Shown piece after piece: positions 25,229 to 36,521 of a stretch of 39,045 nucleotides of DNA (its first letter is position 1; each line of letters opens with the position of its first letter). This DNA is from Prevotella sp. Lineage in GTDB: Bacteria > Bacteroidota > Bacteroidia > Bacteroidales > Bacteroidaceae. The notes under the pieces are model-generated. The model did no database searches. It had not been told where the DNA came from and saw nothing but the letters and a program-made list of their open reading frames with translations. The position numbers were made by a program, and so were the translations under genes. The stretch spans positions 1 through 39,045 of the forward strand of contig JAFQQY010000010.1 in NCBI GenBank assembly GCA_017410365.1, read 5' to 3'.

Positions 25229-25276
25229 CGGAAAACAACAAAATGGCAGTTAAAATAGATTTTTTCTGTCATTTTA

Positions 25277-25308
25277 TTTGTTCGTTTCGCCTAAAAGTTA
25301 TACTTTTG
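25277..25308 (+). promoter_or_regulatory. Promoter of the Phe/Tyr biosynthesis operon
   Basis: TTTG (25277-25280) and TACTTTTG (25301-25308) are 20 bp apart, a full match to the Bacteroidota consensus. The start site would be at about 25313, giving a leader of about 200 nt before pheA that contains the attenuator. Confidence 0.85.
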
Positions 25309-25340
25309 CAGTCGTTAAACAAAAAAACAAGAAAACAGAT

Positions 25341-25418
25341 ATGAATCTATTTAGCGCATCTTTTTATTACTTTTATTTTTACTTTGCAGGGCTCTGTGAA
25401 GCGGGAAGTTGCGTGTAG
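25341..25418 (+). CDS. Phe/Tyr leader peptide of the attenuator
   Basis: A 25-codon reading frame from ATG to TAG within the long leader upstream of pheA. It has five Phe and four Tyr codons, eight of them consecutive (FYYFYFYF, residues 8-15) and one more Phe at residue 4. A ribosome short of charged tRNA-Phe or tRNA-Tyr would stall here. The last codons overlap the antiterminator strand (25397-25406), so a ribosome that reaches the stop codon hides it. A purine-rich stretch (AAGAAAACAG) precedes the ATG. This is direct sequence evidence for a classical leader peptide; ribosome stalling itself is inferred from the E. coli pheA and trp systems. Confidence 0.88.
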   Translation: MNLFSASFYYFYFYFAGLCEAGSCV

Positions 25419-25494
25419 ATTTCAACTTATGACAAGAATAAATCAATAAAGATATTCAACAGTCCCGCTTCATTCTGAATGAGGCGGGATTTTT
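25397..25494 (+). promoter_or_regulatory. Attenuator: antiterminator and terminator pair
   Basis: Terminator: TCCCGCTTCATT (25463-25474) pairs with AATGAGGCGGGA (25478-25489) as a 12-bp stem with one G-T pair and a CTG loop, followed by TTTTT. Antiterminator: TGAAGCGGGA (25397-25406) is perfectly complementary to TCCCGCTTCA (25463-25472), the 5' half of the terminator. The two are mutually exclusive. With plentiful Phe/Tyr the ribosome covers 25397-25406 and the terminator forms; on stalling at the Phe/Tyr run the antiterminator forms and transcription continues into pheA. Confidence 0.9.
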
Positions 25495-25511
25495 ACATAA
25501 AGAGAATAAAG

Positions 25512-26354
25512 ATGAAAAGAATTGCCATACAAGGAGAGTTAGGTTCGTTCCACGACATAGCAGCCCATCAGTATTTCGAGGGCGAGCAGGTGCAGTTGAT
25601 ATGCTGTTCTACGTTTGAACAGGTGTTTGAGAATATCAAGCAAGACCCTACTGTTATCGGAATGACTGCCATAGAGAATACCATTGCCGGCAGCTTGCTT
25701 CATAACTATGAGTTGCTTCGCGATTCAGGTGCTGCTGTGGTTGGCGAGCACAAACTCCATATCTCGCATTGCATCTGCTGTCTGCCTGAAGACGATTGGG
25801 ATAGCATTAATGAAGTACACTCTCACCCTGTAGCCCTGCAGCAGTGCCGATGTTTCTTGGCCGCTCACTCAGGTTTGAAAGCCGTTGAGGCAGAAGATAC
25901 AGCCGGTTCCGCACAATACATTGCTGAGCATCAGTGCAAGGGTTGGGCAGCTATATGCAGCGTAGATGCAGCCAATATGTATGGCATGAAGATACTTGAG
26001 GCACATATCGAGGACAACAAGCACAACTTCACCCGTTTCCTTGTTGTTTGCGACCAGCGCAAGGCCGACTTCCTTCGCCCGTTGGCAGAGACCAACAAGT
26101 CAAGCCTTGTCTTCTCGCTGCCTCACGAAGAAGGTTCGTTGTCGCAGGTGCTCAGCATACTGAACTTCTACAAGATAAACCTCACCAAGATTCAGTCGCT
26201 GCCGATTATCGGTCACGAGTGGGAGTATATGTTCTACGTCGATGTTACATACAACAATCTTACTCGCTATCGTCAGAGCATAGATGCTATAATGCCATTA
26301 ACAAAAGAACTAAAGATTTTAGGAGAATACAAAGATGGAAAACAAGTTGACTAA
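25512..26354 (+). CDS. pheA: Prephenate dehydratase
   Basis: A 280-residue enzyme that converts prephenate to phenylpyruvate in phenylalanine synthesis. The catalytic domain (about 1-185) includes AIENTIAGS and the active-site TRF motif (Thr174-Phe176, NFTRFLVV). A C-terminal ACT domain (about 198-270; HEEGSLSQVL and KIQSLPIIGHEWEYMFYVD) should bind phenylalanine for feedback inhibition; the usual ESRP motif reads QSLP here. Start chosen at ATG 25512, since the upstream extension (from 25479) overlaps the attenuator terminator. The last 20 bp overlap the aminotransferase gene. There is no fused chorismate mutase; that activity sits on the DAHP synthase. Confidence 0.95.
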   Translation: MKRIAIQGELGSFHDIAAHQYFEGEQVQLICCSTFEQVFENIKQDPTVIGMTAIENTIAGSLLHNYELLRDSGAAVVGEHKLHISHCICCLPEDDWDSINEVHSHPVALQQCRCFLAAHSGLKAVEAEDTAGSAQYIAEHQCKGWAAICSVDAANMYGMKILEAHIEDNKHNFTRFLVVCDQRKADFLRPLAETNKSSLVFSLPHEEGSLSQVLSILNFYKINLTKIQSLPIIGHEWEYMFYVDVTYNNLTRYRQSIDAIMPLTKELKILGEYKDGKQVD

Positions 26355-27516
26355 CATACAGCCTGCCGACCGCCTCTCGCTGGTCAGCGAATACTATTTC
26401 AGTCGCAAGCTGAAAGAAGTGGCAGCCCTGAATGCCGAAGGAAAAGACATAATCAGTCTGGCAATAGGCAGTCCTGACATGCCGCCGTCAGAACAGACAG
26501 TAGAGAAACTGTGCGAAACAGCGCGCCGCAGCGATACCCACGGCTATCAGCCAACAGGCGGTACGCCAGAACTTCGTGAAGCCATGGCCGATTTCTACAA
26601 GCGTTGGTATGGCGTAGAACTTGATGCCAAGAGCGAGGTGCTGCCTCTTATTGGTTCAAAAGAGGGCATACTTCATGTAACTCTGGCTTTTGTAAATCCT
26701 GGCGACGAGGTGCTGGTGCCTAATCCAGGTTATCCTACATACACCTCTCTAAGCAAGCTCTTAGGTGCCAAGGTGGTAAACTACAATCTTTGCGAGGATA
26801 ACGGTTGGCAACCAGATTTCGAAGAACTGGAGAGCATGGACCTTAGTCGTGTGAAACTGATGTGGACCAACTATCCTAACATGCCAACAGGCGGCAATGC
26901 GCAGATGGAGACATACGAGCGCCTTGTGGCTTTTGCCAAGAAGCACGGCATAGTTGTGGTTAACGACAACCCATATTCGTTCATCCTGAATGAGAAACCG
27001 ATATCGTTGTTGCAGGTAGAAGGAGCGAAAGACTGCTGCATAGAGTTCAACTCTATGTCAAAGAGTCACAACATGCCCGGCTGGCGTGTAGGTATGTGCA
27101 TGACCAATGCCACATTCATCAGTTGGATAATGAAGGTCAAGAGCAATATCGACAGCGGAACATTCCGCGGTCTCCAGCTTGCAGCAGCAGAGGCTTTGCG
27201 CAACGAGGCAGAATGGCATGTGCAAGCAAACATAGAGACATACGCCCGACGCCGCAAGTATGCCGAACAGATTATGGATGTGCTTGGTTGTAAGTACGAC
27301 AACAAGCAGGTGGGCATGTTCCTCTGGGGGCGCATCCCCGACGAGTACGACGATGTAGAGGTACTGACAGAGCGTGTGTTGCACGAAGCCCGCGTCTTCA
27401 TCACCCCCGGCTTCATCTTCGGTTCAAACGGCAAGCGATACATCCGCATCTCCCTTTGTGCTAAGGAGGAGAAGTTGGAAGAGGCGCTGAGGAGGATAAA
27501 AAGCCTCACCCCCTAA
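26335..27516 (+). CDS. PLP aminotransferase, probably aromatic amino acid
   Basis: A 393-residue fold-type I, class I/II aminotransferase. The PLP-binding Lys243 is in SMSKSHNMPGW, with the supporting Asn in TNYPNMPTGG and Asp-Asn in NDNPYSF, and the substrate-carboxylate Arg region RYIRISLC near the C-terminus. Between prephenate dehydratase and DAHP synthase it most likely makes phenylalanine and tyrosine from their keto acids; the LL-diaminopimelate or aspartate aminotransferase subfamilies are alternatives by sequence type. It overlaps pheA by 20 bp. The last residues (KSLTP) and the stop codon are encoded by a REP-like repeat. Confidence 0.88.
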   Translation: MENKLTNIQPADRLSLVSEYYFSRKLKEVAALNAEGKDIISLAIGSPDMPPSEQTVEKLCETARRSDTHGYQPTGGTPELREAMADFYKRWYGVELDAKSEVLPLIGSKEGILHVTLAFVNPGDEVLVPNPGYPTYTSLSKLLGAKVVNYNLCEDNGWQPDFEELESMDLSRVKLMWTNYPNMPTGGNAQMETYERLVAFAKKHGIVVVNDNPYSFILNEKPISLLQVEGAKDCCIEFNSMSKSHNMPGWRVGMCMTNATFISWIMKVKSNIDSGTFRGLQLAAAEALRNEAEWHVQANIETYARRRKYAEQIMDVLGCKYDNKQVGMFLWGRIPDEYDDVEVLTERVLHEARVFITPGFIFGSNGKRYIRISLCAKEEKLEEALRRIKSLTP

Positions 27517-27574: not shown

Positions 27575-27650
27575 ACAACTTGTAAACTCGTTAACTTGTT
27601 AACTATAACAATTAACTCGTCAACTTGTCAACTTGTTTACTTGTCAACTA
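27575..27650. repeat. Octanucleotide-period repeat CAACTYGT
   Basis: About nine degenerate 8-bp units of the form (T/C)AACT(T/C)GT fill the gap before the DAHP synthase gene. An 8-bp period is not compatible with coding. Related arrays occur at 28733, 30696 and 32031. Confidence 0.85.
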
Positions 27651-27664
27651 AAAAATAAAATATT

Positions 27665-28729
27665 ATGGATTTAGAATTAGAGAAACTGAATTTACCATGT
27701 GATAGTGATAGACCTTTGGTTATTGCCGGTCCTTGTTCGGCAGAGACAGAGGAGCAAGTGATGTGTACCGCCAAGCAGCTGGCAGAAAAAGGATGCCACA
27801 TCTTCCGTGCCGGTGTGTGGAAACCGCGTACCAAGCCGGGAGGATTCGAAGGCAATGGCGAGGCGGCACTGCCATGGCTTGCACAGGTAAAGAAAGAAAC
27901 AGGCATGCTCATTTCTACAGAAGTGGCAACGCCAGAACATGTGGAACTGGCTCTGAAATATGGTGTTGACGTGCTTTGGGTTGGTGCTCGCACCTCTGCC
28001 AACCCATTCGCTATGCAGGCATTGGCAGACTCGCTGAAAGGTGTTGACGTGCCGGTACTGGTCAAGAACCCTGTCAATCCCGACCTCGAACTGTGGATTG
28101 GTGCTCTGGAGCGCATCAACCAGGCAGGTATAAAGCGACTCGGTGCCATTCACCGTGGTTTCTCTTCTTACGACAAGAAGATTTATCGCAACCTGCCAAT
28201 GTGGCAGATACCTATCGAACTTCATCGCCGTCTGCCTGAGTTGCCTATCATCTGCGACCCAAGCCATATCGGTGGCACACGCGAACTGATAGCACCATTG
28301 TGTCAGCAGGCCATGGACTTAGGTTTCGACGGACTTATCGTTGAAAGCCATTGCGAACCGGACAAGGCGTGGAGCGATGCCAAGCAGCAGGTAACGCCAG
28401 ATGTGCTTGACTATATTCTCAGTCTGCTTGTCGTTCGCAACGAGTCTGTTACAACAGAAGGCATCAACGTTCTTCGCAAGCAGATTGACGAACTTGACAA
28501 TCAGCTGATGGACTTGCTCGCCAAGCGTATGCGTGTTTGCCGTGAGATTGGCCAGTACAAGAAAGAACACAACATGACCGTTCTTCAGACAGCCCGCTAC
28601 AATGAGATTCTTGAGAAGCGCGGAGCGCAAGGTGCTCTGTGCGGAATGGGCGCAAAGTTCGTAAAGAAGATTTTCGAGGAAGTGCACGAAGAGTCTGTGC
28701 GTCAGCAGATTGAGATATTGAATAAGTAG
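27665..28729 (+). CDS. Bifunctional DAHP synthase - chorismate mutase
   Basis: A 354-residue fusion. The N-terminal class I-beta 3-deoxy-7-phosphoheptulonate synthase domain (about 1-255) starts the shikimate pathway from PEP and erythrose 4-phosphate; GPCSAE (22-27), RAGVWKPRTKPGGFEG, WVGARTSANPFAMQ, VKNPVNPD and ICDPSHIGG are visible. The C-terminal AroQ-type chorismate mutase domain (about 263-354, LRKQIDELDNQLMDLLAKRM ... QTARYNEI) turns chorismate into prephenate. In Bacteroidota and Gram-positives the mutase domain often acts as the allosteric sensor of prephenate. The next and previous genes take prephenate to tyrosine and phenylalanine. Confidence 0.95.
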   Translation: MDLELEKLNLPCDSDRPLVIAGPCSAETEEQVMCTAKQLAEKGCHIFRAGVWKPRTKPGGFEGNGEAALPWLAQVKKETGMLISTEVATPEHVELALKYGVDVLWVGARTSANPFAMQALADSLKGVDVPVLVKNPVNPDLELWIGALERINQAGIKRLGAIHRGFSSYDKKIYRNLPMWQIPIELHRRLPELPIICDPSHIGGTRELIAPLCQQAMDLGFDGLIVESHCEPDKAWSDAKQQVTPDVLDYILSLLVVRNESVTTEGINVLRKQIDELDNQLMDLLAKRMRVCREIGQYKKEHNMTVLQTARYNEILEKRGAQGALCGMGAKFVKKIFEEVHEESVRQQIEILNK

Positions 28730-28732
28730 TTT

Positions 28733-28844
28733 AGTAGACAAGTTAACAAGTAAACGAGTAAACAAGTTAAGTGATTCGGAAACAAGTAACTCATTAACTT
28801 AAAGTATCAACTCGTCAACTTGTCAACTCGTCAACTCGTCAACT
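28733..28844. repeat. 112-bp repeat, inverted partner at 30741-30852
   Basis: This block of octanucleotide-like units (AACTCGTC, AACAAGTA and a central non-repetitive part CGGAAACAAGTAACTCATTA) is the reverse complement of 30741-30852 with six mismatches counted by eye. The two copies enclose tyrA and the dihydrouridine synthase gene. It begins 4 bp after the DAHP synthase stop codon and ends 15 bp before the tyrA ATG. Confidence 0.9.
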
Positions 28845-28858
28845 TAAATAAACAAAAT

Positions 28859-29638
28859 ATGAAAATACTAGTCCTTGGCGCAGGCAAGATGGGAGCATTC
28901 TTCCTTGACCTGCTCAGTTTCGACCACGAAACGGCGGTGTATGAGAAAGACCCTAAGCGCATGCGATTTACATATAACTGTCAGCGTCTCACAACGCTCG
29001 AAGAAGTTAGGGAGTTCCATCCCGAACTGGTTATCAATGCCGTAACGGTGAAATATACCATACCGGCTTTTGAAGAAGTGATGCCATATCTGCCAAAAGA
29101 GTGTATCATCAGCGATATATCATCGGTAAAGACAGGCTTGCGCGATTTCTATATGCAATGCGGCCATCCCTACGTTTCTACTCACCCTATGTTCGGTCCT
29201 ACGTTTGCCAACCTCAGCAACCTGCGCGAGGAGAATGCCATCATCATCAGCGAGGGCGACTATATGGGACGTATATTCTTTAAAGACTTGTATAGCCGAC
29301 TCGACCTCAACATCTATGAATATACATTCGAGGAGCACGACAAGACCGTGGCCTACTCATTGAGTATTCCGTTCGTCAGCACATTCGTGTTCGCTGCCGT
29401 GATGAAGCATCAGGATGCGCCGGGCACCACCTTCAAGCGCCATATGCGCATAGCCAAGGGTGTGCTCAGCGAAGACGACTACCTCTTGCAGGAGATTCTT
29501 TTCAATCCATATACGCACGACCAAGTGGCGCAGATTCGCGAGGAGTTGAAAGACTTGCTTGAGATAATCGACAAAAAGGATGCCGAAGGCATGAAGGGGT
29601 ATCTGACTAAGATTAGGAAGAATGTGGATGAGAATTGA
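28859..29638 (+). CDS. tyrA: Prephenate dehydrogenase
   Basis: A 259-residue NAD(P)-dependent enzyme that converts prephenate to 4-hydroxyphenylpyruvate for tyrosine synthesis. The N-terminal Rossmann loop LGAGKMGAF, the DISSVKTGL segment (with the Ser-Val-Lys typical of the family) and the STHPMFGPTF active-site stretch are visible. No ACT or chorismate mutase domain is attached. Start chosen at ATG 28859; an upstream TTG frame (28820) is just translated repeat. It ends the aromatic cluster, opposite the convergent dihydrouridine synthase gene. Confidence 0.93.
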   Translation: MKILVLGAGKMGAFFLDLLSFDHETAVYEKDPKRMRFTYNCQRLTTLEEVREFHPELVINAVTVKYTIPAFEEVMPYLPKECIISDISSVKTGLRDFYMQCGHPYVSTHPMFGPTFANLSNLREENAIIISEGDYMGRIFFKDLYSRLDLNIYEYTFEEHDKTVAYSLSIPFVSTFVFAAVMKHQDAPGTTFKRHMRIAKGVLSEDDYLLQEILFNPYTHDQVAQIREELKDLLEIIDKKDAEGMKGYLTKIRKNVDEN

Positions 29639-30685: not shown

Positions 30686-30695
30686 ATAATTTTTT

Positions 30696-30942
30696 AGTAA
30701 ACGAGTAAACAAGTTGACGAGTAAACAAGTTATTACTTTTAGTTGATGAGTTAACGAGTTGACAAGTTGACGAGTTGATACTTTAAGTTGATGAGTTACT
30801 TGTTTCCGAGTCACTTAACTTGTTTACTCGTTTACTTGTCAACTTGTCAACTGTAACACTTAACTTGTCAACTCGTTTACTTGTCAACTTGTCAACTGTA
30901 ACACTTAACTTGTTTACTCGTTTACTTGTCAACTCGTCAACT
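30696..30942. repeat. Octanucleotide-rich repeat block with 45-bp tandem units
   Basis: The block contains the inverted 112-bp copy (30741-30852) and a 45-bp tandem repeat with starts at 30817, 30862 and 30907 (last partial). The basic unit is 8 bp (ACTTGTCA and variants TTTACTCG). It occupies the whole gap between the divergent dihydrouridine synthase and EamA genes, so both promoters sit at or in its edges. Confidence 0.92.
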
Positions 30943-30956
30943 TTTTATTACCTTTG
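30926..30956 (+). promoter_or_regulatory. Promoter of the EamA transporter gene
   Basis: TTG (30926-30928) and TACCTTTG (30949-30956) are 20 bp apart. The -33 element falls inside the octanucleotide repeat. The ATG follows 10 nt after the -7 box, so the leader is only a few bases. Confidence 0.65.
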
Positions 30957-31965: not shown

Positions 31966-32065
31966 CTGAACTCCTACACTCCTGAACTCCTGAACTCCTT
32001 TAAAAGTCACTCCTGAACTCCTCAAAATCAAACAACTCGTCAACTTAAAATACAACTCGTTAACT
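31966..32065. repeat. ACTCCTGA and CAACTCGT octanucleotide repeats
   Basis: About six copies of ACTCCTGA-like units (31966-32025) pass into CAACTCGT-like units (32031-32065). Upstream of them, 31925-31945 has ATTGARRG units, also with an 8-bp step. This is the 160-bp gap before the TerB/DnaJ gene. Confidence 0.8.
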
Positions 32066-36467: not shown

Positions 36468-36521
36468 TTCAATTATTCAATCGTTCAATTATTCAATCGT
36501 TCAATCATTCAATCATTCAAC
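36468..36521. repeat. Octanucleotide repeat TTCAATYR x 7
   Basis: TTCAAT recurs every 8 bp from 36468 to 36516 (last unit TTCAACCG). It is another octamer-period family, distinct in sequence from the CAACTYGT arrays. Confidence 0.92.

Follow-up and report, generated by a model that had tools for sequence, protein, structure and literature searches.

We found that the pheA operon of a Prevotella genome is very probably controlled by ribosome-mediated transcription attenuation of the trp/phe type, a reading to which we give a probability of roughly 0.92. The operon runs from pheA through an aminotransferase gene and a DAHP synthase (DAHPS)-chorismate mutase gene to tyrA, and the attenuator would very probably let these Phe/Tyr genes be read only when Phe/Tyr are short. 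The reading is built on sequence elements, their conservation and covariation, their geometry, and the agreement of leader codons with operon content, all of which were observed directly. The DNA analysed, called the window below, is a stretch of 39,045 nucleotides from Prevotella sp. (assembly GCA_017410365.1, contig JAFQQY010000010.1, positions 1 to 39,045, forward strand).

Elements of the probable switch and operon in the window

The following features were located in the window.

25277..25308, + strand: promoter of the Bacteroidota type; TTTG at 25277-25280, a 20-nt spacer, and TACTTTTG (TAnnTTTG) at 25301-25308
25341..25418, + strand: leader ORF MNLFSASFYYFYFYFAGLCEAGSCV, ATG at 25341, stop codon TAG at 25416-25418, 25 codons; homologous leaders in relatives
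25362..25385, + strand: control codons F Y Y F Y F Y F, leader codons 8-15
25382..25389, + strand: strand 1, the 5' arm of the 1:2 hairpin (-7.7 kcal/mol)
25394..25401, + strand: 3' arm of the 1:2 hairpin, overlapping the antiterminator strand
25397..25406, + strand: strand 2, the antiterminator strand TGAAGCGGGA, inside the leader frame (codons 19-22)
25406..25428, + strand: accessory hairpin AAGTTG/CAACTT, 25406-25411 with 25423-25428, stop codon in the loop
25462..25494, + strand: strands 3 and 4, intrinsic terminator hairpin (25462-25490) and T-run (25490-25494)
25512..26354, + strand: pheA, prephenate dehydratase (best NCBIfam match, below cut-off)
26335..27516, + strand: aminotransferase, probably aromatic/prephenate (aminotransferase families below cut-off; substrate suggested by context)
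27665..28729, + strand: DAHP synthase-chorismate mutase fusion (best NCBIfam match, below cut-offs)
28859..29638, + strand: tyrA, prephenate dehydrogenase (below cut-offs; putative start; searches used 28853-29635)
27577-27649, 28807-28844, 30692-30798, 30815-30943, 31966-31999 and 36468-36520: degenerate 8/16-bp tandem repeats

The original prediction proposed classical leader-peptide attenuation, with a consensus promoter at 25277, a 25-codon leader containing FYYFYFYF, a terminator stem at 25463-25489 followed by a T-run, and a 10-bp perfect antiterminator complement overlapping leader codons 19-22. Each of these elements could be read in the sequence. TAnnTTTG with an upstream TTTG is the Bacteroidota-type promoter motif. 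The frame holds five Phe and four Tyr codons, and TGAAGCGGGA at 25397-25406 is the exact complement, over 10 nt, of TCCCGCTTCA at 25463-25472 in the 5' arm of the terminator. The terminator arms (25463-25474 and 25478-25489) contain one U-G pair and enclose the loop CTG; folded in isolation, the hairpin reaches -19.0 kcal/mol (z -5.2). A generic promoter and terminator scan of the window reported neither the leader promoter nor the leader terminator. Both the attenuation logic and the overlap of strand 2 with codons 19-22 were supported by sequence and by the comparison described below.

All four genes of the predicted operon (pheA, aminotransferase, DAHPS-chorismate mutase and a guessed dehydrogenase) were recovered by best match, in every case below curated cut-offs. 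The start of the aminotransferase gene overlaps the end of pheA. Spacers of the window carry degenerate tandem repeats of 8/16 bp, with units such as AACTTGTT and TCAACTCG, and two of these tracts sit within the aromatic operon. In relatives, AATTGAAG-like repeats fill the linker from leader stop to terminator (L021, by eye).

Conservation of the leader in relatives

We looked for a Phe/Tyr leader upstream of pheA in relatives. A named-genome scan yielded 80 pheA loci, mostly titled Prevotella or Prevotellaceae, and a genus search 30 including the window's own. Together these 110 loci had 93 distinct upstream regions, and leader and terminator were found in 90 of them. This count uses a looser terminator criterion, which replaced a stricter first one that had detected 36/110 loci. 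One of the three leaderless regions (L051) is cut by its contig to only 140 nt upstream and was excluded from the chance test. Conservation of the Phe/Tyr run with covarying arms in relatives had been named beforehand as the check, and its outcome favoured the attenuator.

An order search found pheA in 88/198 genomes, own included. From the 87 others we took the upstream regions of 60 and then 22 more, the remaining 5 lying outside the counts. The 60 were joined by 20 further genus-level regions, and one (L148, at a contig end) was dropped. Here the rule for a leader was a frame starting with ATG, GTG or TTG in which 6 or more of 10 residues are Phe/Tyr. Among the resulting 79 usable regions, 73 had a leader and 72 leader and terminator; the order-level part contributed 56/59 with leader and 55/59 with both, and the genus-level part 17/20. 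The further order-level set (20 new loci plus L259 and L260) had a leader in 19/22. The leader was absent from 3/59 and 3/22 order-level and from 3/93 and 3/20 Prevotella-type regions. All 15 class-level pheA regions from other orders and 5 phylum-level ones were also sampled: leader and terminator were present at 13/15 in other Bacteroidia orders and at 2/5 elsewhere in the phylum. In the genus, 23/120 genomes gave no pheA match, including 11/56 of those at least 90% complete; these are possible Phe auxotrophs.

The promoter box and the codons of the run are conserved as well. TAnnTTTG lies no more than 110 nt before the leader ATG at 104/107 Prevotella-type loci (4.8 expected from base shuffles) and at 49/55 order-level loci (3.9 expected). 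At the last five positions of the run, 512/515 codons from 103 distinct loci are Phe or Tyr, with third bases varying at several positions, and this codon conservation points to translation of the leader. The mixing of Phe and Tyr codons in one leader, which had been presented as unusual, held as an observation and fell as a peculiarity, being the rule among the sampled Bacteroidales loci.

Frames of the leader kind are rare by chance. Counted without deduplication and with ATG starts, frames with 6 or more Phe/Tyr in 10 residues occurred upstream of pheA in 54/59 order-level and 107/109 Prevotella-type regions, against 1/59 and 9/109 on the reverse strand of the identical regions and 0.3% and 0.6% in dinucleotide shuffles. 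In the window's own genome, the 16-mer around strand 2 has a single exact occurrence. Six-codon Phe/Tyr runs are not enriched there (27 matches vs 30 for a control pattern), and among them only the window leader was found to be a short frame with an ATG start and a strong terminator downstream; for the other short ATG frame with such a run (L300), the best hairpin that follows reaches -3.9 kcal/mol. Altogether, the comparison lends strong support to the predicted attenuator.

Antiterminator and terminator pairing

Pairing and covariation were studied in an alignment of 68 Prevotella-type loci, of 103 distinct. Each of the three helices (1:2, 2:3 and 3:4) had more paired cells than any of 500 shuffles. 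The terminator helix 3:4 was paired in 85.3% of cells, with 40 two-sided cells. The antiterminator helix 2:3 was paired in 90.3% of cells, versus 36-49% for slid versions, and six of its pairs show two-sided changes. The covariation score of 2:3, 0.062, was reached by 12/500 shuffles and exceeded by two slid versions (0.068, 0.083).

We also swapped antiterminator partners between loci. For 72 loci of L121-L200 (55 order-level, 17 genus-level), the duplex reached -15.5 kcal/mol with its own partner, -10.4 with swapped and -6.9 with shuffled ones, and 87% of swapped partners were worse than the own one. Among the 90 closer loci the contrast is weak (-19.7 own vs -18.0 kcal/mol swapped, 63% of swaps worse). 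Strand 2 persists in a shifted reading frame at two loci (L010, L185), and at eight others (L016, L074, L077, L084, L092, L183, L184, L200) it is kept with a stop codon in it or just behind it. Since it survives frame shifts and early stops, strand 2 is conserved as RNA and not as peptide.

The hairpin around the stop codon (AAGUUG/CAACUU) was paired in 79.4% of cells, versus 20-45% for slid versions, with two-sided changes at 4/6 pairs, a number that slid versions equal. It is missing or weak in a sizeable minority of loci.

Geometry and folding with a ribosome

The distance from the last control codon to strand 2 has a median of 10 nt in 90 Prevotella-type loci and 12 nt in 55 order-level loci. 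It falls between 9 and 13 nt in 89/90 of the former and between 8 and 16 nt in 49/55 of the latter, with order-level outliers from 2 to 47; in the window, 11 nt separate the last control codon from TGAAGCGGGA. Overall, the antiterminator strand usually starts 10-13 nt past the last control codon, a place that a stalled ribosome would not cover.

For folding, we assumed a ribosome footprint of 18 nt upstream and 13 nt downstream of the A site. When the A site was placed on the last control codon, the nascent 2:3 helix was predicted to form with a probability of 0.99 (n=107) or 0.87 (n=55), and when it was placed three codons later this dropped to 0.02 (n=107) or 0.05 (n=55). In the model, then, stalling on the control codons would free strand 2 and moving on would cover it. 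When the full-length RNA was folded to equilibrium, the terminator of the window was predicted to be favoured wherever the ribosome was placed; across loci, for a ribosome whose A site sits on the last control codon, the computed probability of the terminator exceeded 0.5 in 96/107 and 51/55. With the terminator favoured at equilibrium, the decision of the switch would have to be kinetic.

From these observations we infer translation, stalling, termination and read-through in the following order. Transcription would start a few bases past the TAnnTTTG box, and a ribosome would then enter the 25-codon leader. With ample charged tRNA-Phe and tRNA-Tyr, it would pass FYYFYFYF and cover strand 2, so that strands 3 and 4 would form the terminator and transcription would stop before pheA. 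If either aminoacyl-tRNA were short, the ribosome would stall on a control codon and strand 2, 11 nt further on, would stay free; it could then pair with the emerging strand 3 before strand 4 exists, and RNA polymerase would read on.

Leader codons follow operon content

We searched stretches of about 6.5 kb from pheA (some shorter) at 60 loci with the window's operon proteins. One locus whose contig ends within pheA (L258) was dropped before the operon-content test, and the rules for run and partner genes were simple. Leaders of operons with partner genes had at least two Tyr codons in 46/46 cases, while the four leaders of lone pheA genes had 0, 0, 0 and 1 (L130, L145, L172 and L162, respectively; Fisher p = 4e-6, kinship ignored). 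The lone-pheA leader with one Tyr, L162, has a weak antiterminator (-7.9 kcal/mol). In the 46 partner-gene operons, DAHPS was in reach in 45 and tyrA in 34. Downstream of one pheA with a Phe-only leader (L244, genome G153), the same strand carries genes resembling ilvD, ilvB, ilvN and ilvC, as judged by eye from the protein starts.

In 8 genomes pheA stands apart, and in 7 of these the partner genes lie behind leaders of their own, eight leaders in all (L280-L286), which were hand-picked from candidates. The share of Tyr in the run was 0.04 for pheA alone (n=4), 0.42 for the operon (n=46) and 0.58 for partner operons without pheA (n=8), the last two differing with p = 6e-5. Within this group, no tyrA match was obtained in G133, G153 and G208. 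The G153 contig begins at the DAHPS gene, in G133 a protein that resembles prephenate dehydrogenase by eye precedes DAHPS, and no leader was found at a second DAHPS copy in G208 (L287).

For 22 further loci, the prediction was stated before the sequences of 20 of them were fetched and before the leaders of L259 and L260, fetched earlier, were read. Partner genes were present at 20 of them, with 19 leaders, 18 of which had at least two Tyr codons; the exceptions were L344, with one Tyr, and L362, which has partners and no leader by the rule. The two new lone-pheA loci had no leader, and the Phe-only half of the pattern rests on four leaders. Pooled, at least two Tyr codons occurred in 64/65 partner-gene leaders vs 0/4 lone-pheA leaders (p = 6e-6, kinship ignored).

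Trp codons were seen inside the run of some leaders (L164, L166, L169, L174, L152, L158, L178, L186). Where the operon also includes genes of the common pathway, they are possibly a third signal. When Trp codons were set against the lack of an aminotransferase gene in the operon, the difference was not significant (4/33 vs 5/13, p = 0.09). In G208, the region upstream of the aminotransferase gene (L284, reverse strand) carries two leader-plus-terminator units in tandem, MTTYTFSYFYYWFRTP, which has a Trp codon, followed by MVNFEFYYGFYYYLD; their hairpins reach -16.3 and a weaker -11.6 kcal/mol, respectively.

The 1:2 hairpin and alternative explanations

In a simpler form of attenuator, only the antiterminator and the terminator would matter and an untranslated leader would be read through by default. 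The original prediction leaned this way: it described two helices in competition, without a separate 1:2 hairpin. Folding agrees with it in part: before strand 4 exists, 2:3 is predicted to be favoured even on ribosome-free nascent RNA (0.98 in the window; means of 0.72 and 0.63 in relatives), and the 8-bp 1:2 hairpin of the window (CUUUGCAG/CUGUGAAG, 25382-25389 with 25394-25401) is worth only -7.7 kcal/mol. That hairpin, whose 5' arm falls in the last control codons and whose 3' arm overlaps the antiterminator strand, is nonetheless well kept. Its consensus CUUUGCAN/NUGYGAAG was paired in 99.6% of cells in the 68 loci, versus 33-60% with a slid partner, and 30 two-sided changes were found, all at one pair that alternates in step between A-U (34/68) and G-C (28/68); four of the eight pairs are invariant and hence uninformative for covariation. 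Moreover, the 5' arm is near-fixed at synonymous sites, with TAC in 103/103, TTT in 102/103, and GCA in 96 and ACA in 6 of 103 loci. Outside Prevotella-type genomes, the excess is weak (0.73 vs 0.64 in synonymous controls). Comparison of the sequences shows that a separate conserved 1:2 hairpin exists in Prevotella-type loci, contrary to the prediction, and we hold the two-helix form to be unlikely, at something like one chance in four. The role of the hairpin may be that of a pause signal or of a default terminator.

Two explanations that dispense with the sensing of Phe and Tyr by a ribosome fare worse. Phe and Tyr codons are rich in U, and the run might have arisen as a side effect of selection not for codons but for a U-rich stretch free of structure, acting as a translation or decay signal. 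In such a stretch one would have to accommodate second bases of the run that are almost always A or T beside third bases that vary between C and T, and a Tyr content that nearly vanishes with lone pheA and rises in partner operons without pheA; we consider this explanation very improbable. More improbable still is control of the operon by a ligand-binding riboswitch, a T-box or a protein-bound leader with the small frame being incidental. Terminator/antiterminator pairs occur in such systems too, but here the conserved part is the frame together with its switch, and the window has no Rfam match at gathering thresholds: permissive E-values gave 19 matches, all weak, below their own thresholds and taken as chance. 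Ribosome-mediated attenuation remains the reading that we prefer.

Relation to known systems

Compared with classical attenuators, the element has a short leader with clustered end-product codons, an intrinsic terminator between leader and first gene (by sequence and fold), an antiterminator exclusive with the terminator (with weak contrast among close relatives) and, in Prevotella-type loci, a 1:2 protector or pause hairpin as a structure. The enterobacterial pheA and pheST attenuators (RF01859) share with it a Phe-rich leader peptide, alternative hairpins and an intrinsic terminator before a Phe gene. Here, in contrast, the leader alternates Phe with Tyr codons and its frame contains strand 2. 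The RF01859 Phe_leader covariance model scored at best 18.8 bits in the window, against a threshold of 55, at 25247-25367, a stretch that does not contain the switch. In the ilvGMEDA and thr attenuators of E. coli, a single leader responds to several end products of a branched pathway; the window leader, in a different phylum, would sense the aromatic Phe and Tyr, and relatives sometimes have Trp codons in addition.

The Bacteroid-trp model (RF01692), linked to trp by its name, had no match in the window or its own genome and was above cut-off in 2/30 genus genomes. The element lies outside the Rfam Phe_leader and Bacteroid-trp families by their models. Weinberg et al. 2010 (PMC2864571) list Bacteroid-trp RNA among predicted cis-regulatory RNAs of Bacteroidetes; our element is alike in this respect and fails its model. 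The uORFC-13-1 motif, upstream of aroF, is reported only from Acholeplasma and environmental sequences; it shares a Phe-containing leader frame that precedes a terminator and a DAHP synthase gene, and differs in having at least one Phe codon and another predicted structure (PMC8632094). Among the open-licence full-text matches listed, including PMC2864571, PMC8632094, PMC1262725 and PMC4833913, we found no description of the element; the survey of Lopatovskaya, Seliverstov and Lyubetsky (2010) lies outside this scope and may list Bacteroidetes leaders. The open-licence matches listed contained little on the regulation of amino acid synthesis in Bacteroidota.

Altogether, it is well supported that the element works like the classical ribosome-mediated attenuators, and its sequences offer an unusually clear evolutionary test of the sensing logic. 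We consider it likely that an ancestral, Bacteroidia-wide attenuator of the Phe/Tyr operon had its sensor codons retuned to the genes it controls: Phe only for lone pheA, Phe and Tyr for the operon, Tyr-rich without pheA, sometimes with Trp, and in tandem in one genome. Bacteroidota largely do without Shine-Dalgarno initiation, and the finding raises the puzzle of how ribosome and polymerase are timed in such a phylum. If true, aromatic amino acid synthesis would have a concrete and widespread switch in bacteria among which are many gut and rumen Prevotella, and the retuned sensors would form a natural set in which the codons of each leader tell the signal predicted for its operon.
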